Positions 3,081 to 42,532 of a stretch of 42,619 bases of DNA are shown here, in pieces. How positions within the stretch are numbered: the stretch's first letter is position 1; each line of letters starts with the position of its first letter. Source of the DNA: Spirogloea muscicola (lineage: Eukaryota; Streptophyta; Zygnematophyceae; Spirogloeales; Spirogloeaceae); contig WELB01000165.1 of assembly GCA_009602725.1 (NCBI GenBank), positions 33,039-75,657 on the forward strand, given 5' to 3'. Both the position numbers and the translations under genes were made by a program. The notes beneath the pieces are model-generated. The model was not told where the DNA came from. It searched no databases and saw only the letters and a list, made by a program, of their open reading frames with translations.

Positions 3081-6000
3081 TTAGCCACCTTGGAATGTTG
3101 AGACCAGCAGCTTGCTGTTCACAGGCTTTGCCAGGTATGCATCCATGCCTGCCTGCAAGCACTTCTCCTTGTCGCTCGCCATGGCATGAGCAGTGCAAGC
3201 TACAATTGCAATGTGCCTCCCCGTGCCGCGCTCCATGTTCCTGATCTCCATGGCAGCGCTGTAGCCATCCATGACTGGCATCTGGCAGTCCATCAGGATG
3301 GCATGGAATGGGTGATCCCCAATACTGTCGCTAGTCAGAGCCGGCAGGCTGCTTGAGTAGAAAGGATCCTTCGGGTAACCCTGTGCCAGAAAGAAGATCG
3401 TATTGTCAAGGTTTGCCAGCAGCAGCACTTGCAACTTGCACACAATTTTGACTATTCAGGAGCCTATTCAGCCTGTAGTCATGGGAGTGTTGCAAGTCAA
3501 AAAGCAAGGTGCATAAATTTGGCTACCAAAAGTAGTAGCAGGCCCTCAACCGTTCTCTTTACCAAATGATGGACGGTCCTCAAGCCCACTCAGGAGCACA
3601 GGAGGTTCTATGAAGCCTCTGAAGATTCTGAGCCTCTCTGCTCACCAGTTTTCGATGCCTGGCCACAGCCTCCGTCACTGCAAGCACCGCCTCCCTGCCG
3701 TCGTTCACAGCCACAACATGGGCGCCCAGCTTCTTGAGCATCATGGTTGCCAACCGCTGCAATACTGGGGTGTCCTGCCAGGACAGGTTCGTATCTCCCC
3801 AATCAGACTGTCGCCCCATGATGAAAGAGCAAAGTACTGTGGGGAAGTCTAACTCCTGTCGTGTTGTGCCAATATCAGCAAGATGCTCTCACCAGAGGGT
3901 AGGAGGCAGATTGCGACTCACCTCTGCCACGAGAATCCTGAAGCCAGCCAACGCCCTCAGTGAATTACCGGTCTTGGCAGCGGACGGGGGAAATGACGAT
4001 GACGACAATATGGGCTGCTTGGGCATAGTAGAAGCCACTGCCACTGGCAAGCTTCCTTGACGTAGTGGCCGCCTAGCTTCAGGGCCACCAACTACTTGCA
4101 AATTGTCAGTGAGGTCCCCAACTCCACCGTCTGCTGCCTGCTCCTTTGATTGAACTTGTGTGTCCTCATCACCTTCTTGTGTATCCTTATCACCTTCTCT
4201 CAAGAGTCCTGTCTCGGCTTGGACACCCTGCCTGCTTCCACAATCTGCATCAGTCTCAATCGGAGCCGCCTTGCTCACATCATCTTTAGGATCCCCGCCG
4301 CCCTCTCCCTCCACAAGGGTCGCCTTCTCCATCACTGTAAGCCGCCCCAGGAAGTGGATAGCACGGCTTGGATACACTGGCTTGCTCAGCAGACGTGCTG
4401 GCATGCCGGTGTCACAAGCTAGGATGTGACGTAGGCCCGCAGGCATGTCGGCAGCGGTCAGCCACGCCAGCTCAAACGTACACCCTGTGGCCAGCAGCTT
4501 CATCCTGCTCACAAGCGCCCGGACCTCCTCCAGAGCAACCTGAGGGTAGCCTGGTAGAAGCAGCACATCCATGACAGCTATGATGAATGGCCTTCCGACG
4601 CCTTGCTCCCGCATGCCCATCTCCTGCGCGGGGCTCGTCGCAATGCCAGGGGAAGCCAGCGGCGAAGCTCCTGCTCGCCGGGTCTTGGGTTCCTTGCCTA
4701 GGGACACAGTGCGCACGATCCCCGCAAGCAGCGGCAGGGCCTGCTTTGTGAGTGTGGCATCCGCGGCTGCAGGACGCACGCGGTCCAGGAGCTTGACCCA
4801 AGCCGCGTCAATGTCGCTCCACGCGCCGACCTGCACGAGCTGGAGCCCCTGCCGCTCCAGCGACCTCGTCAAGATGTCTCGGCTTGGCGCCGTGGGCATC
4901 ACCAGCAGCACCGGGCAGCCGCTCAGGCGCTTGGGCAGGGACAAGGGCATGGCGGTCACATCAGCCCCGAGATTGACAACAGTGGACTTGGGAGGTAAGC
5001 TGAGGTAGATCTTCACTCGGAACAGAGTCCCGGGACCTGGCTTGTCAACTATCTCCACTGAGCCATCCATGAGCGTCGCCAGCTTCTTCACTATCCCCAG
5101 ACCAAGACCTGTGCCTCCATGACTGCAGGTGCGGTCCAGAAGATGTATCGTCAGTGCACAATCTACCCAGTCAATGTTGTGCATCTTGAGATCAAGATAA
5201 GATGGAATCAAGAGATACCCAAGGTCTGGCCTTGTACTTTAGTTTTAATATCTGAAGGTTTCAATGCCAAATATCTCAAATTAAATGCTTGCACCTACTC
5301 CAACGGTACGCAGTCAATGAGGGCGGAAGTCAGCAAGCTTCCGCTTCACAGCGTCCATCATCATGGTGCAGGTGGGCCCAAGACCTCAGCTTACATTCTT
5401 GTGGTGGACGTGTCTGCCTGCATGAAGTCCTCAAAAACTAGCTCTCGCTTCTCAGGTGGGATACCGCATCCTGGTGCACGGAGGCGGCCGAGGGAGGTGC
5501 CAACCTCAGCCAATGTGTCTGTCACCTTGATATGCTTGTATGTCTATTTTGCAATCTAGAGGACAGCGACCATAGATGACTACGTAGGCCAGCAACATGG
5601 TCAACACAGCAGAGAGCAGTCACGATGAGGATCTGACGAACTTTTGTCGGCCAGGAAAAGGGTGCAGCCTAGGCAAGTTGGCCATAGGGCACAGCCAATT
5701 GCCAGGTCAGCCTACCTGTGTCATCAATCTCCATGGTCAGAAGGATCAAGTCTTCCAAGTCATCTCTGCTGTGAATGGCTGCAAGTGCAGGGTTCCCTAT
5801 GAGAGTGATCCTACAGTCCCGCGTTGCAGAAGCACGTAGCACCACATAACCCTCCCTCGTGAACTTAGCTGCCACAGTACAATCAAGACGCACTTGTCAA
5901 GACCGTGTGAGATACGCGCCAAGGAGCCTCGATCAAGAGAAGAATCAGCATTGAGTTCCCATTCATGAGAGGAAGCCAATTGCAATTTATGATACAGGTA

Positions 6001-8864
6001 CGTGCTCTCCCACATTGCAGATGACACTGCTTATGCTTGGCTTACTGGCATTTGACAGCAGATTGCTGAAGATCTGACGAAAGCGAATGGGGTCTCCCAA
6101 AACTACATGTGGCATTGACTCTGCAGAAGTTGAGAATGCCAAGATTACACTTCTAGAACCACTTCTAGATCCTTATGAAGTAGCAACAATCTCATAGTAA
6201 ATCCACATGCCTCTGGCAACAATATTTGTAGTGAATGCCCTCATCAGAGGGTGCTCGCATAATTCAAGGGCACATGCAGCCGCATGTATTACCGTCAACA
6301 TCCAAGGCAAGGTCCACATTCTTCTTCTGACATGGGCTGAAGAACACGTTGATCAGATTCTCAAGCTCTTTGCAGGGAAAGAAGGCCGACTTTTCTAGAT
6401 GCAGCTTGCCTGCCTCGATCTGCAAGTGATCACTCATAAGCGATAAGTAGAAGGCAAGAGAAGTCAGACAGAACCTTCCACACACTTGCCACCAGAATGC
6501 AAGGTACTGGAAGACATCAGAGCAACTCTGACAGCTAGTCCCAGACTGTAAGATGGTGCAACCTTGCTGAGATCCAAGATGTCATTCAGAAGTCCAAGCA
6601 AGCCCGTGGCGCAGCGGTGTATCTGGTCGACATTAGTGGCCTGCTCGTCTGTCAGATTGTCTGCCATAAGGACGTCAAGCAGGCCCATGATGCCAGCCAT
6701 GGGTGTCCTCAACTCATGGCTGTGGAGGAGGGGAAATAGATATTCAATATCAGCAAGAGTCAGCAAGTGTGCCCCTCTGCCTGAACGACAAGCAGACCAA
6801 GTTAAGTTCGAACTGGACTCAGCCATAATGAGGTTATCGCATTGGAGAACCGTGTCCTTCCAATGTGGAGGTGCCATGTGGGATACAGAGGACCACATCG
6901 CCGCTGGGAAATCTGAAGTAGCACAGGATGAGGGCGAATGGCTAGTCCGAGTTCAACTTAGCAGCTTATATTACGAGATCCAATACAGCCTGGCCGCTGT
7001 ATCTCTGACAAGCCAGAATTGCACCTCATGTTGCAGAGAAATGCAGTCTTGTAATTGCTCGAGGCTTCAGCCCTTCTCTTAGCCTCGAGGTGTTCAATGA
7101 CCTCCGCCTTGAGCCTGATCTCGCTCGACACCCGGCCAGTGAAGAGGAAGAGCAGGATGATGCCGACCATAAAAATCCCGAAAGCACAGCCCACCAGGAT
7201 GCCAAGCTCCCAGTGCCCACGACGGTCAATCTCGTGAAAGATGTTGTACCTGGGAATCATGATAGTCCCAACCTATCCCGCGCAATCAAGCCGCCCATCA
7301 GAAGAAGGATCTTGCACCTTACTTGCATGCAACCGTATCTTCCGGAGCTTAGCAGCCAGCCAAGCAGCCAGCTGGATATGGTAACCATAGGGTGGGTAAG
7401 CTTTTACCAAGGAGATATTGTAGTCGTTGATAGGCACAGTGTTGATAAAGTATCTCACTCCACCAACTCGCACAAGCCCCAAGTCGTACTCCTTTGCAGC
7501 CAGGGCTTCAAGGCCATACCTGGCCTCCAAGTACTCTGCAAGTACCACAGGAACATTGTGAGAGTCAAGGTCAGAATCCTCAGATGAAGCTCAAGCTTCC
7601 AAGCTTGCTCAAGCTGCAAGGACCTCACACGCAGTGGAAATTCCACCAAGACCATGGGCCCAAGGGTGAACATTCATCCAGGTTGACTGAACCATGATTG
7701 GCTCGCAATACTGTGGCTTGCAAGGTGAGCAGTGGGCAGACCAGGTAGCAGACGAGAGTCAAGAACAGTTAGCTCGGGTAGCTCGATGCTAGTCAAAGTG
7801 GGAAAGGACCTGCTCCAGCCTTGATAACGGGGTCGCTGGATTCTGTGGCCTTTGTTTGAATTGTCGCATTACGGCTGTAAAATGAGGAGCTGTTGCTAGA
7901 ACCGTGGCCGGCAGCGGCCACCAGGATGCCGTCTGGGACAGTGGTAAACCACAGGACTCCACCGAGGAGGTTCAAGGACTCCACCAACTGGCTGACAGCG
8001 CCGATAGTAGATGTGATAGCCACGGCGCCGCGGAGATCGCCAGCGCTGTCGAACACAGCCGTGCTGTGCATGTGGTGTGGGACACACCCTTCAGTCAAGT
8101 CAGCATGGGTCGCTCCTTGTTGCTATCGTCGTGATCCAAATTGAGCGGCATGTCAGGATCAGGTGATATGACCAGTGAGTGGAGCAGCAAGTACCCACGG
8201 ACCTGCAGGTGAGGGAGGCGACGACGATTGAATAGCCGGCATTCACCATGGCGCAATGGACTTTCTGGCTCTGTTTTTGCGCGATCGCGTTGCGGTACCA
8301 GTCGAAAGCTGTGGCGGACGCATTCTTGACAAGAGGAGTGCTGGCATTGATCTGCGCGCCGGTGCTAATATTGACGGCAGCATAATAGGCCCAGCTCGTG
8401 CCGTGGGCCGTGAACTCAAAGCCCGTTGTGTTGGAGAAGAGAATCCAAGCTCCTCCGCTGGCGCGCAGGAATGCCGTCCACAAGCCCGTGGTCGTCGTGA
8501 AGATGACCGTGGAGCGCGACGGGTCGGGGAGGAAGAAGGCGGCATTGACGGTGATGGCGCGCGGGCTCCAATCATAGAAACGCTCCTCCTCCAGTCGCAC
8601 GCCCACCAGCGACGAGCCCATGAGGCGGCTGTAGCTCTCCGTGTCCAGCGCGCGGGCGTCGAGCAGCGACGACATCTTGTCACGCGTGCGCTGCAGGATG
8701 GACTTGCGCAGGTCCTCGGCAAGGGAGTCGACGTCCTGCCGCTCGAAGATGGACGTGAAGTGCCAGGCCAGGAACGTGAGCGTGCCGAGCAGCACGCCAA
8801 GCAGGACCTGCGGAAAGGCCACAGAGCCACAGAGCCACAGAGCCACAGAGCCCACGGCCACCAT
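3081..8864 (-). CDS. AHK1-like: Hybrid histidine kinase, AHK1-like osmosensor type, 13 coding exons
   Basis: Exons on the minus strand: 8864-8195, 8088-7810, 7535-7408, 7272-7025, 6719-6563, 6419-6293, 6120-6046, 5868-5716, 5470-5395, 5122-3922, 3774-3646, 3380-3081. All junctions are GT-AG with matching phases, giving about 1180 aa (Arabidopsis AHK1 is about 1207). Order: N-terminal membrane anchor; extracytoplasmic Cache-like sensor (about residues 40-375); second membrane span (GILVGCAFGIFMVGI); linker RAEASSNYK, as in AHK1; HisKA with phospho-acceptor His in SHELRTPM; HATPase_c with N box (DPIRFRQIFSNLLSNA), DTGCGIPPEK, and HGGTGLGLGIV; a degenerate receiver; and a C-terminal receiver with acidic pair ED, phospho-Asp in ILMDCQMP and Lys in YLAKP. 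It probably autophosphorylates and relays phosphate to His-phosphotransfer proteins. The start is uncertain: ATG 8864 gives a signal-anchor, but 8810-8808 (CAG) could instead be an acceptor for an upstream first exon, which would make exon 8807-8195 the second of 13. Confidence 0.88.
8819..8850 (+). repeat. 8-bp tandem repeat (CCACAGAG)x4
   Basis: Four perfect copies of CCACAGAG lie exactly at the histidine-kinase N terminus. If translated on the minus strand they give a periodic hydrophobic segment (GSVALWLC...). If the adjacent CAG is a splice acceptor they are intronic. Length changes here would alter either the signal-anchor or the intron. Confidence 0.9.
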
Positions 8865-22397: not shown

Positions 22398-24682
22398 TCA
22401 GTAAGCCCACGCGGACGTGGTCGCGGCACCACCCCATGCGAAGCTGCCGGGGACGTCGGACGGGTGCGCAAACTCGGGGATATCGAGGAAGTCTCGCGGG
22501 TGCCCAAGCGCGGAGGTGAGGTCGACAGGGCTGCTGAGGTCGGAGTCGCTGAGAAGGTTGGGGATGTCAAAGAGCTCAAAGAGTGGCTGCTCCTCATCAG
22601 GCTGCGGCGCCATACTGTCAGGGGCGAGGTCTCCCACTTCCAGCTTGTCGAGGGGCGTCGTCGGCGACAGCGGGCCAAACTGGGGGCAGGGCTGGTGCAT
22701 CGCTGGTGGCCAGTGCTGCGGAAGCGGTGGCAGCTGCTGCTGCTGCAGTGGCATGGGCGGCTGCATCGGTGGCGGCTGCTGGTGCAGGAGGCCGAGCGCG
22801 AGCTGCTGTTGCAGCAGCGTGCGGGCAAGCAGGCCCTGATCGAGCATGCCGGTGCCCACGGGGGCGACGGCATGCTCGATCAGGGGGGTGACGGCCGGCT
22901 TGGTGTCAGCAAGGTAGTGGGATGGCGGCTGCCGCAGCATCACCTGCTGTGACAGCGGTGGCAGCTGCTGCGCCGGCTGCTGATGGTGGAGCAAGAGTTG
23001 CTGCTGCTGTGGGCGTTGCTGGAGGTGGAGCTGATGGCGCTGGTTGTGGTCGTGGTGGAGGAAGTTGGCGTGCTGCGGTGGTGGGCATGAGCCAGTGCTG
23101 GCGGTGGCAGCGGCCTGCGCAAGAAGCGCATCAGCGAGGAGGCGCTCCTGCAGAGCTCGCTCCTCCAGCAGCCGGCGCTGCAGCATCTGGCGGTGCTGCA
23201 GCAGCCGGTGCTCCAGCGCGCGTTGCTCCAGAGCCCGGTGCTCCAGCAGCTCGCGCACCGCCGCCGCCGTCGCCGCCGCAACGCCGTCCCAGCCGCAACT
23301 CAGGAAGGTGGCGCTCGGGGATGGCGATGCAGGCGACGTGCTGGTCACGGCGGCATCCATCCATGCAGCGCCGCTGCTGCAGCCGCTGCTCTCCCTGCTC
23401 GACCCGCTCGATGTTGACGTTGCCGCGCGCTTGGCTGCCGGCATCAGTGCTGCCGCGAGCGGGAGCTGCAACAAGCGCTGCGTCGCCGCAATCGGCGACT
23501 TGGGGTCGCCACTGCGGCGCTGCTGAGCAGTCGAGCTGCCGCCGCCAGACAGCATCGTCGGGCTGCCGGAGCTCAGGCTGTCCTCAACGGACGCCACTGC
23601 CGCTGCCGCATCGCCGACAGCGATGCAGCCATCGCCACCGCCGCGGGTGGCGAGCTGCCGGCTCAGCGCCTCCCTGCGTGCGCGGACGAGCGCCTGCATG
23701 GTCGTCGCTGGCAGCGGCACGTCATCGTACACGTCCGGGAAGTTGAGGAAGCGTCCCGTAGCCTGGCTCCCGCGCAGGATGCGCGCCGCTGCGTCGTACG
23801 CCTTGGCGGCCTGCGAGCCCGAGAAGGGAAGTGGGCGTGGCACAAGCGCCGGCACAACAAAGAGCGGCGCTCAGGGTGGTGGGCGCAGAAGCTCAGCCAG
23901 TTTCGTTCGAGGCTTGGACAACAACGTGCGCACCAAGCAAGTGGGTTTGGAGTGCAAGGGGGGAAACAGGCAGGAGCTTTCAAGTAACGACATCACCGGC
24001 GGTCAGACTGGCAGCCCAATTGGCAGCATGGCTGCTGGCCAGCAGCTGCCAAGCGGAGGAGGAGGGAGGGAGGAGATGGGGGCGGTGGGTTTTCGCCAAC
24101 CTCCTCGGGCGTGTCAAAGGAGCCGAGCCAGATGCGCGCGCGCTTGCGCGGCTCCCGGATCTCCGACACCCACTTGCCCCACTTGCGCCGCCGCACGCCC
24201 TTGTACTGCTTGCTGCCCGCCGCCCCACCCCCCTCTGCCTCCTCCTCGCCGTCGTCCGCCGGCTCCCCCGCAGCCTCGCTGCTGCCGGGCGCCGTCAGAG
24301 GCGTCAGCCCCGCCGGAGGCGTCGGGGCCGCCGCCACGGCGGTGCCGGAGTCGAGGGCTGCGGAGCTGCCGCCACAACGCGCTGCTGCGGCGCCGAGGCC
24401 GCTGCCGGCGCCCGGCGAGGGGTCCGCGATGACGGTGAGCGCCGGCTCACGCACGACGACCGGGATCGCGGGCCCGTCGATGGGCTGCAGCACGCCCACG
24501 CCGTTCCGGTCGTACAGCACGCGGTACTTAGGGGACGCCGCCGCCGCCGCCGTACTAGCGAAGCCACCGCCGCTGCCGCTGTCCTTGCCGCCAGTGGCCA
24601 AGGCCGGCGCCGGTGCCGGCGTTGGCAAAGGCGGCGGCGGCCATCGAGCCTCGGCCAGGGGGGCCGCCGGCAGCGCGGGCAT
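22398..24682 (-). CDS. AP2/ERF-domain transcription factor, exons 24682-24101 and 23810-22398
   Basis: The single AP2 domain reads [35 protein letters not shown], then across the intron [14 protein letters not shown] and LNFPD. The YRG-like and WLG elements and the Ala/Asp-rich helix are all present. It should bind GCC- or DRE-like promoter elements in the nucleus. The phase-0 intron (24100-23811, GTTGGC...GCAG) splits the domain, unlike most land-plant ERFs. The predicted protein is about 664 aa from ATG 24682. An unrelated N-terminal block ([17 protein letters not shown]) may be a conserved motif. After the AP2 domain there are Ser/Ala-rich linkers, a long Glu/Arg/Leu helix ([20 protein letters not shown]), a Gln/His-rich segment, and an acidic C terminus with [10 protein letters not shown] and DFLDIPEF that looks like an activation domain. 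Stop TGA at 22400-22398. The start is uncertain, because the frame stays open upstream without an ATG. Confidence 0.85.
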
Positions 24683-25500
24683 GGCCCAAGGAGGCGGCGG
24701 CGGAGGCGGCGGCGGAGGGGGGAGAGCGTGGTAGTGCCAGAGCTTTGTATCCCGGAGGAGGGAGAGAGAGGAGGGGGGGAAGGAGGGAGGAAGGCCCCCC
24801 CTCCCTCCCCAACGCCAGGGGCGGTTGCGGCGGGGGGCACGTGCGGGGGCCAGGGCCCAGCAGCAGAGGCTCAGACGTCCTCCACCTCCCTGGGAGGTGC
24901 CTGGCAACCGGAACGGCCAGCACTCAGGCGTCGTCTAGCGCGGCGCTCCGCGGGTAGCAGGGGCGCGAAACGTCGGGGAACTTGGCGGCGCCCGGTGCCC
25001 GGGCGCGCAGCGCCGCCGGGCCTGGCGGCGCCGTCGGCCTGGCCCCCGCCCTGCCGCGCCGCTCGCGCGCCCGGCTTCTTGCAACATCCCCGCACATCGT
25101 AGCCGTGAGGTGAGGCGCGGTGGAAATCCGGCACGGGAGGCCCGCCGGAGCGCCGCCTCTGCTTCTGGCGACGCCGCCAAGTTGGCGGCGGGGCCGCAGC
25201 GCGCGCCTCTCCCGAGACGTCCCCCCCCCGTCCTGCTGCCGGAGGGTGCCTCCGGCTATGGCGGCGAGCGCGGCGGCGGCGGCTCGGCCACGCCGCGGCC
25301 CCGTCGTCGGGAGGGGGCCACAGTCCGCCATCGCCGCCAGGCCCCCCGAGCTGCGCGAGGACGTCCCCGCTGCCAGCAGCTGCGCTCGCGCGGCCAGCTC
25401 CTATTCGCTCTTAGCCACTTGCATAGCGTGTGTCGTTTTGGCGCCTCGCCGGCCCCTCCCGACAATGTACCGGCTTGAATTGGCCTCCATTTCATTTTAT
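24683..25500. other. GC-rich 5' region of the AP2 gene
   Basis: It includes a purine-rich tract on the plus strand (24740-24800) and GC-rich sequence to about 25400. Several long frames are open on both strands, as expected from composition. It probably contains the promoter and 5'UTR of the AP2 gene. No TATA box stands out. Confidence 0.4.
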
Positions 25501-26689: not shown

Positions 26690-26822
26690 CAATCAGTAAC
26701 TCCTATTGAGCAGCCGCAGGTCAGAGGAATTAGTCTCCAGGTAGCGGATCCCCTGGCCAGAGCTAGAGAGATGTCAGAAGGAATGAATAAGGTCCAAAAG
26801 GGCCGAAAGGCGCCAAAAGGCA
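26690..26822 (-). mobile_element. Family 1 LINE coding end abutting a triplet repeat
   Basis: Antisense C terminus in CAGTAACTCCTATTGAGCAGC then CGCAGGTCAGAGGAATTAG, with ALARGSA-type codons (GGATCCCCTGGCCAGAGCTAG split by context). It ends at about 26820, where the GGN repeat starts. Confidence 0.65.
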
Positions 26823-27285
26823 ATGGCAGCGATGGTGGTGGCGGAGATTGCGGCGTTGGTGGTGGCGACGGTGGCGGAGATGACGCCGTTGGCGGTGGCG
26901 GCGATGGTGGTGGTGGAGATGGCGGCGTTGGCGGGGCGGCGATGGCGGTGGTGGTGATGGCGGCGGTGGCGGTGGTGAAGATGGCGGCGTTGGCGGTGGT
27001 GGCGCTGGCGGTGGCAGCGCTGGTGATGGCGGAGATGGCGGCGATGGTGGTGGCGATTGCGGCGGAGATGGCCGCGTCAGCGCTGGCGCCGATGGTGGTG
27101 GTGGAGATGGCGGCAGTGGCGGTGGCGGCGATGGCGGTGGCAGCAATGGCAGTGGCGGAAATGGTGGCGGTGGCGGTGGCGGCGATGGTGGTGGCGGACA
27201 TGGCGGCGTTGGCGGCGGTGGCGGTGGCGGAGATGGCGGCGGTGGCGGTGGCGGTGGTGGCGGTGGCGGCGGCGAAGCCAATTCT
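26823..27285. repeat. GGN-triplet minisatellite (GGT/GGC/GGA/GAT), Pro/Ser-rich on the minus strand
   Basis: About 460 bp of imperfect triplets with a higher-order unit close to GGTGGCGGAGATGGCGGC. Every frame is nearly stop-free. On the minus strand one frame reads PPSPPPP-type repeats, as in hydroxyproline-rich wall proteins of green algae, but that reading moves to another frame near 26930. The safest call is a triplet repeat; it could be a broken HRGP exon. Confidence 0.85.
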
Positions 27286-34490: not shown

Positions 34491-35018
34491 GCTCAGAAGT
34501 CTAAGTTATCAATCAATACATCACCACCATTAACCTTAAGTGGTGAGTCGACGGTCGAGATTTACACGGCAGTATTTCTCGGGGCTGCCGAGCCCCTGGA
34601 GCTCCGAGGAGCCGCCACGTGGCGCGCTGGGCAGTTGGCAAGTTCCTCGGCGGGCCGACCGCCGCTGCGCCTGGGAGGCACCGCCACATTCGGCGGAGCC
34701 TCGCCACATTTGGCGCCGCCGCCGTGGGCGCCAAAGGAGGCGCGCCTCGCCCCTGGCTGCCGCCAATCTGGCGGCGAACTTGGGCCGCCCCCACAACAGA
34801 GGCCTGGCCCAACGGGACCCCGCCTGACTGGCGGAGGCCGAGAAGCCCGCCGCATTCTGCGCCGCCGCCGCCGCCGCCCCCGCCGCCGCGGCAGCGCCGT
34901 GCTCNGGCGTCCAGTCCGGCCTCGTCGGCGTGAGCGCCAGCCCGCGCCTCCCGCGGCAATGGCGGCGGCGGCGGCGGCGGCGGCGGTGCTGAGGCGGCCG
35001 CGGCGGCGGCAATGACAG
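34491..35018. other. GC-rich 5' region of the PLD gene with an N
   Basis: Rich in GCC/CGG triplets with an N at 34905. The first PLD exon, encoding the N-terminal strand of the C2 domain, should lie in or above this stretch. A candidate donor (GTCGGC|GTGAGC at 34930) precedes the acceptor at 35017-35018, but the upstream sequence does not read as a C2 start, so I do not call it. Confidence 0.5.
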
Positions 35019-38000
35019 GTGTACGACCGCGTGGAGAATCTGGTGTCGCGCGACCGGGCGTACGCGACGGTTGACGTGGGGCTGGACCGCCCCGGGCGCA
35101 CGCGCATGGTGGACAACCTGCGGGCGCCGGCGTGGGGCGACGCGCTGCGCATCCCCGTGGCGCACGACACCGCCGCCGTCGTGGTGTCCGTCAAGGAGGG
35201 CAACACCGTGGGCGCCGAGCTCGTCGGCCGCGCGTCCGTGCCGGTGGCGGCGCTTCTGCCCGGCGACGCGCTCGACGGCTGGTTCGAGCTCGTCAAGGAC
35301 GGGCGCAATGCCAACCCCGCTGCCGCCGCCGCCGGCGACGGCGCGAAGCTGCGCCTCAGCCTGCGCTTCGTCGCCGCCACCGCCGACCCCGCCTACCGCG
35401 CCGGCGTCCCCGGCGACGGCTCCCGCTTCCCTGGCATCCCCTTCACCTACTTCCCGCTGCGCACTGGCTGCCGCGTGCGCCTCTTCCAGGACGCCCACGT
35501 CCCCAACGGCCTCCTCCCGCGCGTCCACCTCGCCGGCGACCGCGTGTACGAGCCGGGGCGGTGCTGGGAGGAGACGTTCGCTGCCATCGCTGGCGCGCGG
35601 CACCTCGTCTACGTCGCCGGCTGGTCCGTCAACACCGAGACCACGCTCGTGCGCGACCTGGAGCGGCCGGTCCCGGGCGCCGTCGGCGTCACGCTCGGCG
35701 AGCTGCTCAAGCGCAAGGCGAACGAGGGTGTTGCCGTGCTCGTGATGCAGTGGGACGACCGCACCTCCTCCCAGCTGCTCCACAATGCCACCGGCATCAT
35801 GAACACGCACGATGTGAGGGCCCCCGTGGTCTTGGTCGCCTACAGCAGCGCAAGCTCTTGTGGCACTAAACCACGAGAACTTGTCCGTGGCTCTTATTGC
35901 CACATGACAACCGCACGTCTTGCACATTTTTGCAACACCAAGAAAATCATAGTCACCTTCAAGACATGATGAAGACTACTACTCATACACTTCATGCTCA
36001 CAGAGCAGAGCAACCACCTTCGCAACGAGGGTCGCAGGTGCAGGATTAGTCAGTTGCATCTCATCAACTCATCTGTGCTTCATTTCAAAGCAATCTCATC
36101 AGTCGTGTTGCTTGACCTGAGTCCTGGCACAGGAGGAGACGCGCATGTACTTTGCGGGCACCAAGGTGCACTGCTTCCTGTGCCCGCGCAACCCGGCCAA
36201 GAACCTTACCATCTCGCAGGGCGCGCAGATTGGGAACCTCTTCACGTGAGCACGCCTGTCGCCTGCAGCGCTTCACTTCACCTTATGCTCGCGTTTGCCT
36301 TGGCGCCACTGACGCCCGCTGCTCTCCTGCGGCCACACAGCCACCACCAGAAGATGGTGGCCGTCGATGTACCAGCGGACGTGTCGCACCCGCTCGATGG
36401 CCGCAGGCGGATTGCATCTTTCGTGGGCGGCATCGACCTCTGCGGCGGTCGCTTTGACACTCAGGCGCACTCGCTTTTCGCGACACTCAGCACGTACCAC
36501 GCTGCCGACTACCACCAGGCTTGCTTTGAGACGGCGGCACAGGAGCTCGGCGGGCCCCGTGAGCCATGGCATGACATCCACGCGCGCGTGGAGGGTCCCG
36601 CCGCCTGGGACCTGCTCTTCAACTTTGAGCAGCGCTGGCGGAAGCAGGCTGGCACCAAGCTCGAGGCGGAGCTCCTACCCATCGCCCAGGTTGCGGCTCT
36701 TGACCCGCCTACCGCGGTCATGGAGGAGGCCGACCCAGACACCTGGACTGTTCAGATACTGAGGTCCATTGACAGCGCCTCAGTCGCCGGCTTTCCCGAC
36801 ATGCCGGAAGACATGTCTGCCGCCGGCCTCGTCAACTCCAAGAGCGACACCGTCGACCGCAGCATCCAGGTGCCTTGTTGAGCATCTCGGTAGCCCAAGG
36901 CTGGCTGTCAAGACACTCCAGAAGCAGACAATAGATGCTGCGCTAATGCCCTTTATGAGTTGTGGACTTTGCATCACATTCATACCCCTGCCATCCTCTC
37001 AGAAAAGCCTGCACAACATGGATGGGTCATGGTTGGGGTACGTTTAAGAGCTGCGCCTGTATCAGAAGAAACCCTGAAGCTGTTGCTGACAGAAGTTGGG
37101 ATCACCCCCCAAACCTGCAGAACGGGTACATTCACGCCATCCGGCGTGCGCAGCATTTCATCTACATCGAGAACCAGTACTTCCTGGGATCAAGCTTTGC
37201 ATGGGAGGCCGACCAGGCGTGCGGTGCGTTCAACATGATCCCCATCGAGATCGCGCTCAAGATCGTGCAGAAGATTGAGGCGGGTCAGCACTTCGCTGCG
37301 TACATTGTTGTGCCCATGTACCCCGATGGCGTGCCGTCTGGCGGGGCCTGCCAGGCCATCCTCCACTGGCAGGCTAGGACCATGTCGATGATGTACCGGC
37401 TCATTGCTGCGGCTCTACGCCGCGCGGGCCGCATGAACGAGCACCCACGCGACTACCTCGCCTTCTTCTGCCTGGGCAACCGGGAGCTGCCGGTTCCTCA
37501 CGAGTATGTGGCACCCAAGACACCCACGGAGAAGTACTACCGGCGTGCGCAGGAGCACCGCCGCTTCATGGTCTACGTACACGCCAAGATGATGATAGGT
37601 CAGCTGTCCACCCCGTCACATCTTCCTCGGTCATTTGCAGCTTTCCACCCGGGCAACCCTTTGCACATTGTTCACCTGTGGTGGTCTCACAGTGCAAAGT
37701 GCTATGAGCCCACACTTTGCTGAGCCAAAGCACTCGAGTCTCCGACGCAAAAGGTAAATGTGGACCTTTCAGAGACACAACACGACTTATTGTCCTCTTC
37801 TCCAGTCGATTGTCCTCTTCTCCAGTCGATGATGAGTTCATCATTGTTGGCTCTGCCAATATCAACGAGCGGTCACAAAGCGGGACGAGGGACACCGAGC
37901 TGGCCATGGCGGCCTTCCAGCCGCATCATACCTGGGCAACAGGGGCGCTTAGCTCCCCTCCCCCGAGAGGTGGCCCACCAGGGCCCCGCGGCGAGATCCA

Positions 38001-38421
38001 TGGCTTCCGCATGTCGCTATGGGCGGAGCATGTAGGCTCGTTGGACAACGTCTTCCTAGATCCTAAGAGGTGCGCGTGCCTCAGATTCATGAGTACCTCT
38101 CATTGCACAATTAGAACCGTGAGATTGTCAATTGCCACACTCTGATGTCGTGAAACGGGCCTGTTTGCGCCATGCTGAAATGAGAGTGTGTGCTGCAGCC
38201 TGGAGTGCATGCGGAAGCTGCAGGTGGTGGGAGCACAAAACTGGGCTGACTTCGCCGGCGAGCAGCTTGTGCTGCTCAAAGGCCACTTGATGAGCTACCC
38301 GGTGGTCATTGATCAGTTTGGGGGCGTGGGGCCGCTAGCTGGCCAGCACTACTTTCCTGACAGCCTTGCACCCATCCTGGGGACTAAATCTGGCATGCTT
38401 CCAGATATCCTTACCACATAA
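35019..38421 (+). CDS. PLD: Phospholipase D, plant C2-PLD type (first exon not found), six exons
   Basis: Exons: 35019-35813, 36133-36245, 36341-36869, 37121-37598, 37826-38069, 38199-38421; all GT-AG, phases consistent, about 793 aa. It hydrolyses phospholipids such as phosphatidylcholine to phosphatidic acid at membranes. Most of a C2 domain is present ([19 protein letters not shown]). HKD motif 1 is HQKMVAVD at the start of exon 3 of this model, and motif 2 is HAKMMIVD split by the fifth intron. Plant-PLD landmarks are [57 protein letters not shown] and the C terminus [14 protein letters not shown]. Length and order match plant PLD-alpha-like enzymes (about 810 aa), so only about 30-45 N-terminal residues are missing. 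Stop TAA 38419-38421. It converges with the RRM gene. Confidence 0.93.
37791..37830 (+). repeat. Exact 20-bp tandem duplication of a PLD splice acceptor
   Basis: TGTCCTCTTCTCCAGTCGAT occurs at 37791-37810 and again at 37811-37830. Each copy holds a polypyrimidine tract and CAG. Only the second acceptor (exon from 37826) restores the HKD motif; the first would add 20 nt and shift the frame. Confidence 0.95.
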
Positions 38422-39166: not shown

Positions 39167-42100
39167 TCAGCTCAGCAAAGCTGGTTTGCTACCCTCACTT
39201 GAGCTAGACGTATTGGTTGAAATAATTTCCTGTACATGAGGTGCTAGGCAGGGAGATGGATTTCTGTCATATGGCGGTTTCTCAGACAGATGAGGATCTT
39301 GCCCATCCACAGGCTGCAAAGTGGACAGAACTTCAAGCTCCTCTGCCAATGAGGTGCTGCTGCTCTCCTTCTTCCGCCCAAAAGGGTTTTTCGAATACGT
39401 AAGGCAGAGTCAAGGAGTGACATCTCTTTCAAAGATTTGAAAAGAAAGCAAGACTTTGGACCAATCATGCAACTTGTCTGAGCAGTTGAGGCGCGCAGTA
39501 TGAACGCAGTATCCAGCATCAACAGCACAAGCGGCAAGCGACACTGTGACGGGCAAGCACATGAAAGGATATTGAATGCGCATTCCTCCGCGGTATGAGG
39601 AAGGGAGGATGGCTCCTTGCAGATTGTCATGGACAGCTATAGCTGCACCAACATCCTGCCACATCCAGCCGCAGCAGAGAGACGTCAGCAATGCCGACTC
39701 TTGAGTTGCTGACCAACGGCAGTGCCTATTCAGTGGAAGCTCTATGCAGGTCGGGAGCCCTGGACCACGAGCCTGCGCCAGCCTCAGATTTACAGCTGAG
39801 GTGGCGATTTGTTGGTGGCGAGTGGGGCTGGGACGTAGAGTCCCGTTGTTGGTGTTGACTTGTGACACGGCGGAGCTGACTGGAATGGACTTTGCGACAC
39901 TGTTGGTGGAGCTTGGCTGCTGCTGTTGAGGAAGGCTTCGATAGGGTCGAATCAGCTCGAGGGCGACTCAATTCGCAAGCGTCTTGCAATCCCGGGCACA
40001 GCACCCTGGACGGTATTCTTGCCGTCCTGGTCATGGTCTTCGCTTGTCACAATGTGTAGACTCTCTCTGGGTGGCGGGGGCGAGGTTGTTGTGGATGCTG
40101 AGGTGCTCAAGACTTGAACGCGAGACTCGGAGCAGGGAGTGTTGACTGCGGGGTCACAGGAAGTACAAGAGCGACATCTGACCGGTGGCTGACGTGTTGG
40201 TTAGACGTCAATGCGCAAGTTGAAGCACTCACCGCAAACTCCACAAAGCATATAGGCCCATTGTGCTGCCGCAGGATCTTCATCTGGCGAAACGACGGTT
40301 GGCTGCAGCATGCACCACAGTACACAGCCACCATGCCCTTTGCTCATGCAACTTGCAACCATATGCAAGATGTGCAGTTGCTAATAGATTTCACATGGAG
40401 CAGCATTACTGACAGGGTTGACAGTAAGATTATTCTTCAAATGACCAGATTCTTGTGAGTGAGAAGTGAATGACAATTCAACAGCGAGCACCGTAACAGA
40501 CATTCCTCAGTTGCCAGTTAACAAGAGAAAGCTTGCAGTGCTTACTTCTCAAACAAACCTCTAATCTCAGCTTCATTGGTAGACTCTCCAAGGTTGCCAA
40601 TGAACAGCGTGTTGCAGGGAGGATTGTCCTTCGTGTTCTGCACCCACTAGCGCAGTTCATGAGGTTTGAGTCTCAGATCTTTGGGTTGCAGCAACCTTAC
40701 AGAGCAACACTGAAAATGTGGGCTCTCCAGATAAATGTTGTGCCGCTGCGCAATATATCCACCCCCCCCTTTCTTCATTACCAAGAAAGAATGCTCAGAA
40801 TGAGCGCCACGCTATCTGAAGTATGAAACCTTGCAGCACACCAGGATAGCAAGTCGGAAGCTACCTGCACTGGCGCATAACCTGACGGAGACGTTGCCAT
40901 GCTTGTCATTGAGGATGTGTAGCTAGACTGCGCCTGGAGGTATGGGTCGAATAGGCAATTTGGAGGGGGGTAACTGCGAGCACGCCAGCTTGCAGAAGAC
41001 AGTTGGTGAAAGTGGCATAACTGGCGTGTAGAAGCCAGAACTTCACTACCGGGCGTGCAATTTCAACTGCCTGCCTCTTCACAAACCTCACTGTTGCTAA
41101 GCCCCCCTCTTGCTCCTTTCACAAGCAAAATCGTTTCTGCCAGTCCGCACATCATCCCCGTCTTTGGCTCAAGCAGATACCTCAACAGCAAGGCAGTGAG
41201 GAAGAGGGAGAGTGCTTACGACGGTGGGGGCCATGGCAGGCAATGCATGGCCATAAGTGTGGTTGGTGTGGCTGGCGGGAGGGCATACGGGGGGAACATG
41301 AGCACGCTCTCCCCTCGACCGTTCGGCTTGATGCCGTCGTAGCTTGGCAGGTCAGAGACACCTGCATATGTCACAGCTCTGCCAGCCGCTCAAAACGTTG
41401 GGCACTATTGCACCATGCAACTTTGAGCTTGGCAGTAGCTATCTGAGCGCTTGCATCAACTATCATGGCTTGGTAAATTGGCAGCCAACGTTAAATTGGA
41501 CATTTCTGGTGTAAGAGCAAGCTTCCAGCCAGGCATGGCTCCCATGAAGCACAGCATCATTGTGACATTGTGCAGCTCCAGCGAAGCAGCGCCAGCATGG
41601 CCGCATGCCCATCTACAAGCTGCGCCCTACTCGGCCCCCAGCCAGCAGATGCCTGGCCTAACAATCCCATGTGAGCAAGGGGCGTAGAGAGCCACAGATT
41701 GACAGCTCTCACCTCGTTTGACGAACAAGTTCTTCTTGGCCATCTCTGCCCGCAGTACTGACTGCGACTTGGCATCAAATATCAGATTCTGCGCGACACA
41801 ATGGTCCACTGTCAGCACAACGGCTCGTCCTAAGCTCGTCGTAATGACGTTCTACACATCAACAATGTGCTGCAGCCACGAGCAACTCAGTCAAGGGGCT
41901 GATCAAAACAGAAGGGTGAAGCTGTACCTGGAGAGCGTTGCGGGCGGCCATGGCAGAAGCAGTGGTGGAGAAGAGGGCGAAGCCCATGGGCTGATCGCCT
42001 TTGAAGTTGATCTGGGATGACTCGTAGCCCGGCCACCAGCGCAGCAGGTTCTGCAGCTCCCGCACCTTCACATCCACTGGAAAGCCGAGCACGATGATGG

Positions 42101-42532
42101 TCCGGACCTGCACGAGCTCCCACCACACACGGGTCGCAGACGAGACTCAATGCAGCTCCAAGCTCGAGAGCCCGAGCGCCCGCGACGACCAATCGAGTTC
42201 TCCAATGCAACACAAAGCAGCAGCCGAGGGAGGCACAAAGCCGCGGTTCAGCTGCCTGCCGTGAAAAGCTAGCGGGCTGTGTTTGGCGCCCCAAGAAGCT
42301 TCGTCACACTGACAAACCTTTCGTCGCCCTGACGGCCCCTGCCTTGTCCATGGCCTCCGCTCTCTCAAAGGCCCTGACATGCGTCCTCATAAGGACGCAT
42401 CTTTGACTGTGGCATGACAGAAAGCCCAGGATCCTGGACGCCGGCGCTCACCTCCTCCTCGCCCAAAATATGCGACGGCGGCGACGATGCGCCAGCGGTC
42501 TGGCTGCCAGCGTGGGCGGGGGCGCAAGCCAT
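39167..42532 (-). CDS. Two-RRM RNA-binding protein, Scw1/Whi3/RBPMS-like, with one AT-AC intron
   Basis: Supported exons: 42532-42452 (start MACAPAHAGS, ends GEEE), 42107-41928, 41788-41713, 40637-40546, 40302-40233, 39655-39573, 39398-39167. RRM1: VRTIIVLGFPVDVKVRELQN, WWPGYESSQINF, MGFALFSTTASAMAA, then NLIFDAKSQSVLRAEMAKKN. RRM2: NTLFIGNLGESTNEAEIRGL, FENQPSFRQMKILRQHNGPI, CFVEFADVGAAIAVHDNLQG, GGMRIQYSKNPFGRKK. These match the fungal Scw1/Whi3 and animal RBPMS type, which bind mRNA and control its stability or translation. The tail is Ser-rich and ends at 39167. One or more linker exons between 41713 and 40637 are not resolved; 41351-41218 is a candidate. The last intron (39572-39399) is of AT-AC type. 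Confidence 0.88.
39399..39572 (-). other. U12-type AT-AC intron in the RRM gene
   Basis: The 5' splice site is ATATCCTTTC (39572 downward) and the 3' end is AC (39400-39399). The branch-site element TCCTTGAC (39416-39409) has its branch A 12 nt before the next exon. These are the hallmarks of minor-spliceosome introns. Splicing CA|G gives Gln and joins MRIQ to YSKNPFG, the invariant end of RRM2 in Scw1-type proteins. No GT-AG pair gives that join. Confidence 0.88.
40638..41712 (-). other. Unresolved linker region of the RRM gene
   Basis: This should hold the linker exon(s) between RRM1 and RRM2. A segment at about 41351-41218 is open in two frames between an AG and a GTAAGC donor and is Pro/Tyr-rich in one of them (FPPYALPPATPTT). 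Exact exon limits need transcript data. Confidence 0.4.

Follow-up and report, generated by a model that had tools for sequence, protein, structure and literature searches.

In animals and land plants, U12-type AT-AC introns (the Hall and Padgett class) commonly carry ATATCCTT at their 5' splice site, TCCTTRAC 10-15 bases ahead of the 3' junction, and AC at their end, according to the consensus quoted in PMC2831892 and PMC2426677, the same two sources that quote the 5' splice-site consensus used here for scoring. Green algae were placed by Bartschat and Samuelsson 2010 (PMC2846911) among the groups without U12 introns, Chlamydomonas reinhardtii being the green alga that they examined. The sequence-only reading of the present locus gave volvocine green algae as reported to lack the minor spliceosome; the absence is documented for C. 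reinhardtii, the main text of that paper never uses the word "volvox", and no feature of the window marks its organism as volvocine. Larue and Roy 2023 (PMC10639083) later counted 166 minor introns for Chara braunii, 110 for Klebsormidium nitens and 77 for the glaucophyte Cyanophora paradoxa; the word "chlorophyt" is absent from the main text of their article. Klebsormidium belongs to Streptophyta and Chlamydomonas to Chlorophyta. Given the minor introns reported for Chara and Klebsormidium, a green alga with U12 introns is therefore not new by itself. Our limited search of the open-licence literature found no minor splicing in chlorophytes.

We analysed a stretch of DNA of 42,619 nucleotides (hereafter, the window) and found on its minus strand, at 39572-39399, what is very probably a U12-type AT-AC intron, judging from its letters, lying in the part that encodes the C-terminal RRM, within a gene for an RNA-binding protein resembling MEC-8 and plant NSR. 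The exon boundaries of this gene were picked by eye and checked by script, and the modelled part comprises eight exons. The features are as follows.

41928..42107, minus strand: exon 1 of the modelled part, RRM1-like (Pfam RRM_1 E 0.15, below the cut-off)
41713..41788, minus strand: exon 2, RRM1-like part, from the gene model
41220..41361, minus strand: exon 3 as modelled, its frame not carried into exon 4
40865..40933, minus strand: exon 4, linker, from the gene model
40546..40637, minus strand: exon 5, start of RRM2 (NTKDNPPCNTLFIGNL), from the gene model with PDB and Pfam matches
40233..40302, minus strand: exon 6, RRM2, from the gene model
39573..39655, minus strand: exon 7, RRM2 as far as MRI plus the CA of the split Q codon, from the gene model
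39399..39572, minus strand: putative U12-type AT-AC intron, seventh of the seven in the modelled gene, 174 nt, phase 2
39564..39572, minus strand: U12-type 5' splice site ATATCCTTT, matching the consensus at 9 of 9 positions
39409..39416, minus strand: branch site TCCTTGAC, matching TCCTTRAC at 8 of 8 positions
39399..39400, minus strand: 3' splice site AC, the intron ending in TTAC
39167..39398, minus strand: exon 8, third base of the split codon, YSKNPFGRKK... and the stop TGA at 39169-39167

The first letters of the intron, ATATCCTTTC, conform to the 5' splice site RTATCCTT of U12-type introns. Its branch A, at 39410, occupies position -12 (the twelfth base from the intron 3' end, the last base being 1), within the 10-15 bases expected for TCCTTRAC, and an in-frame TGA (39412-39410, minus strand) lies inside the branch site itself. 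Of the two pairs of ends known for this class, AT-AC and GT-AG, the intron has AT-AC. On the minus strand the junctions read ...AATGCGCATTCA / ATATCCTTTCAT...CACTCCTTGACTCTGCCTTAC / GTATTCGAAAAACCCT, with ...ATGCGCATTCA flanking the intron on the 5' side and GTATTCGAAAAACCC on the 3' side. Its removal would join the coding exons in frame through a codon split in phase 2 (ATG CGC ATT CA/G TAT TCG) and restore the RRM strand, with a modest margin over the alternatives. Phase 2 agrees with the bias of minor introns away from phase 0 (PMC10639083). On re-reading the minus strand we found the coordinates and letters given by the sequence-only reading to be exact, and the U12-type class that it proposed is backed by both defining motifs, their spacing, the phase and the restored RRM strand.

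As for the host gene, its other six modelled introns are GT-AG introns of 139 to 577 nt, and a single open frame running through exons 5 to 8 encodes a conserved RRM. With this C-terminal RRM, MEC-8 (6dg0) came first of 10 PDB sequences (E 9e-12), and the predicted product falls among the MEC-8/NSR-like proteins with a C-terminal RRM. The C-terminal position of the domain is likewise found in MEC-8 itself, in the plant NSR proteins (AT1G76940, AT1G21320) and in AT3G21215, the best PDB match being MEC-8. Plant NSR and At3g21215 proteins typically carry the strand MRIQYSKNPYG. Scans of viral_contigs and genome_contigs confirmed no relatives of RRM2. Within exon 3 (41361-41220), a run of six C near the middle may hide an indel, or the exon may in fact end at a weaker donor, GTGCTC, some 56 nt from its start by hand count.

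AT3G21215 has been described as similar to mec-8 (PMC6283158). Lucero et al. 2020 (PMC7073835, section 3.1) found NSR matches to be absent from chlorophyte genomes and also from Physcomitrella; since Physcomitrella lacks them too, their criterion may have been strict. The same authors found their RRM "motif 2" to be restricted to monocots and eudicots (section 3.2). In the literature that we searched there was no statement that the Arabidopsis orthologues have a U12 intron: PMC2375911 treats a NAGNAG acceptor in At1g76940, which is a different matter, and PMC2426677 gave no match for RNA-binding, At3g or At1g.

How often would such a pattern arise by chance? Two relaxed scans of both strands of the window, one for [AG]TATC[CT]TT with a branch site of at least 7/8 and an AC or AG end within 1500 nt, the other for [AG]TAT[CT][CT]T[TC] with a branch site of at least 7/8 and an end matching the start within 1000 nt, each returned the intron at 39572-39399 as the sole match. 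The first relaxed pattern occurred in 90 of 200 order-1 simulated windows, so that weak U12 look-alikes are common. By contrast, the full pattern (ATATCCTTT, TCCTTRAC at the right distance, and AC) occurred in one of 200 simulated windows (below 500 nt) and, in a second simulation (up to 1000 nt, branch distance 9-14), in none of 1000. In a bacterial control (19 loci, 341,165 bases) there were 16 relaxed matches and no strict one; as ATATCCTTT is absent from all 19 loci, this control tests the relaxed pattern only and says little on the full one. When only a single fixed junction is considered, the order-1 model gives the full pattern a chance of about 4e-12.

The protein might instead read past MRIQ, with no intron at all, to the TGA 53 codons on, or be joined elsewhere through another GT-AG intron. 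The 174-nt stretch is indeed divisible by three and open as far as its TGA, and the Pfam RRM_1 score is as good for the read-through as for the spliced form (40.5 and 40.1 bits, respectively), although RRM_1 ends ahead of the junction and hence cannot separate the two. We scored the products of 577 candidate AT-AC, GT-AG and GC-AG introns of at least 50 nt around the junction against the RRMs of MEC-8 and U2B'', references picked from a search run with the spliced product. The AT-AC intron 39572-39399 stood alone at the top with a summed alignment score of 266; the next-best candidates reached 251, equal to the read-through, and no GT-AG or GC-AG candidate among the 577 scored above it. In the PDB phmmer search, the spliced protein matched MEC-8 (6dg0) with 48.6 bits and an alignment that reaches residue 88, six residues beyond the split codon at 82, so that MRIQ-YSKNPF pairs with the MEC-8 strand LRIEYARNKM across the junction, whereas the alignment of the read-through protein (44.5 bits) stops at residue 84. 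The gain is small, about 4 bits, because no more than five or six conserved residues lie beyond the junction, and the first of these, Y83, is present in the read-through too. According to the sequence-only reading, nothing but this intron could connect MRIQ with YSKNPFG. That needs correcting, since cuts slid by 1 to 4 bases also encode MRIQYS, with CAA for CAG, but the slid cuts have TA-CG, AT-GT, TC-TA or CC-AT ends by eye; among the 577 candidates the AT-AC intron alone has the top score. The unspliced frame runs for 53 codons beyond Q and stops at the TGA within the branch site, giving 135 residues counted from exon 5 against 158 when spliced, so retention would alter the protein end after the RRM. 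Considering also that the full set of U12 motifs would fall at this junction by chance with a probability of only about 4e-12, we regard the absence of an intron, or a different one, as scarcely credible.

A U12-type AT-AC intron being the preferred reading, its removal could still be the work of the major (U2) spliceosome, since introns other than those of the U12 type can also have AT-AC ends (PMC3584512, PMC6283158) and the other six modelled introns of the gene are all GT-AG. The U2-type AT-AC intron described in PMC6283158, however, is without the U12 5' site and branch site, whereas here both motifs are complete. In a crude duplex calculation with human snRNA segments, predicted U1 pairing at the AT-AC 5' site was +1.4 kcal/mol, which is not useful, against -4.5 to -10.5 for the other six introns. 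Predicted U12 pairing of the branch region was -10.5 kcal/mol against -2.6 to -7.4 in the other six, and the same region pairs weakly with U2 too (-5.0); U11 pairing at the 5' site (-4.9) was no better than at the GT-AG introns (-4.3 to -9.6). The two textbook motifs and the pairing figures together point to U12-dependent splicing, and we hold removal by the major spliceosome to be highly improbable. It is likewise very unlikely that the gene is a decaying copy holding a fossil intron in a lineage that lost minor splicing. Such a history would fit the frame of modelled exon 3, which is not carried into exon 4, but this break lies beside the six-C run, and either an assembly error or a misplaced exon boundary may account for it; exons 5 to 8, moreover, remain one open frame with a conserved RRM, and U12 motifs would not be expected to stay unmutated in the absence of selection. 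A U2-type AT-AC intron, retention, alternative GT-AG introns and a fossil intron were thus all considered and rejected.

From these features we infer that the AT-AC intron is spliced and that the organism has a functional minor spliceosome (U11, U12, U4atac and U6atac). On the general knowledge of this pathway, U11 and then U6atac would recognise the 5' site ATATCCTTT, U12 would pair with TCCTTGAC leaving the branch A at -12 bulged, and the minor spliceosome would join CA to G, giving MRIQ-YSKNPFG. Within the window there was no Rfam RNA match at gathering score, and ARAGORN returned no genes.

Several further features were noted in the window. Pieces of a hybrid histidine kinase lie at 3081-6952 on the minus strand, where separate ORFs carry the HisKA, HATPase_c and response-regulator domains (Pfam), and a CCCH zinc-finger protein at 804-1892 on the plus strand. 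An AP2/ERF domain at 22398-24934 (minus strand) is seemingly split by an intron: Pfam places its first half at about 24.2 kb, while the apparent second half, where the 23870-22398 ORF begins, was seen by eye only and is not reported as AP2 by Pfam. Between 10 and 32 kb, several ORFs contain similar repeated peptides by eye, such as MRLAVSLQRSMARALHLRAG, which suggests copies of the tail of a non-LTR retroelement; no relatives of the LINE-like ORF were confirmed in viral_contigs. A GC-rich minisatellite array of GGCGGTGGC-like units occupies 26819-27274. The whole window has three N bases, which show up as single X residues in the ORF list, and at least one of these falls within a triplet repeat rich in GC. 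Pfam gave nothing above the cut-off on four further ORFs of the window.

Regarding the lineage of the host, a phospholipase D gene lies convergent with the RRM gene at 35016-38400 on the plus strand, its 3' end placed by eye, and carries a C2 domain (Pfam). Against PLD alpha 1 (6kz8), a plant enzyme, it scores 357.8 bits across 278 residues, compared with at most 78.2 for the four remaining PDB sequences in the list. No PLD relatives were confirmed in viral_contigs; in genome_contigs the search returned 19 loci, all with bacterial titles and 23-33% identity. A plant-type PLD points to the green lineage, with which the PLD, the AP2 domain and the histidine-kinase domains together fit. GC content ranges from 50 to 69% by 2-kb step across the window. 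At third codon positions, the RRM gene has 51% GC in one piece and 78% in another, and the PLD gene 95% in one and 80% in another; high third-position GC leans in the chlorophyte direction. TGTAA marks chlorophyte 3' ends, and neither the PLD gene nor the RRM gene has this motif close to its 3' end. This result, along with the lack of chlorophyte NSR matches in the section of Lucero et al. cited above (PMC7073835), leans away from a chlorophyte.

The intron is of a well-known kind, and its importance rests on the identity of its host. A lone, unmutated U12 intron among GT-AG introns is a good marker that a lineage runs the minor spliceosome. We consider it rather unlikely that the host is a chlorophyte alga which retained this machinery. 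Were this the case, the finding would be new as far as our limited open-licence literature search goes; it would contradict the view of minor splicing as lost from the chlorophyte branch, place that loss somewhere inside the branch, and offer a foothold on when and how Chlamydomonas and its kin lost minor splicing. If the host is a streptophyte alga, the intron is ordinary and agrees with Larue and Roy 2023, whose Chara braunii and Klebsormidium nitens (PMC10639083) are, as here, cases of minor introns in green-lineage algae. Compared with the AT-AC introns of the Hall and Padgett class in animals and land plants, the present one, known from its sequence alone, displays no sequence difference that we could see.
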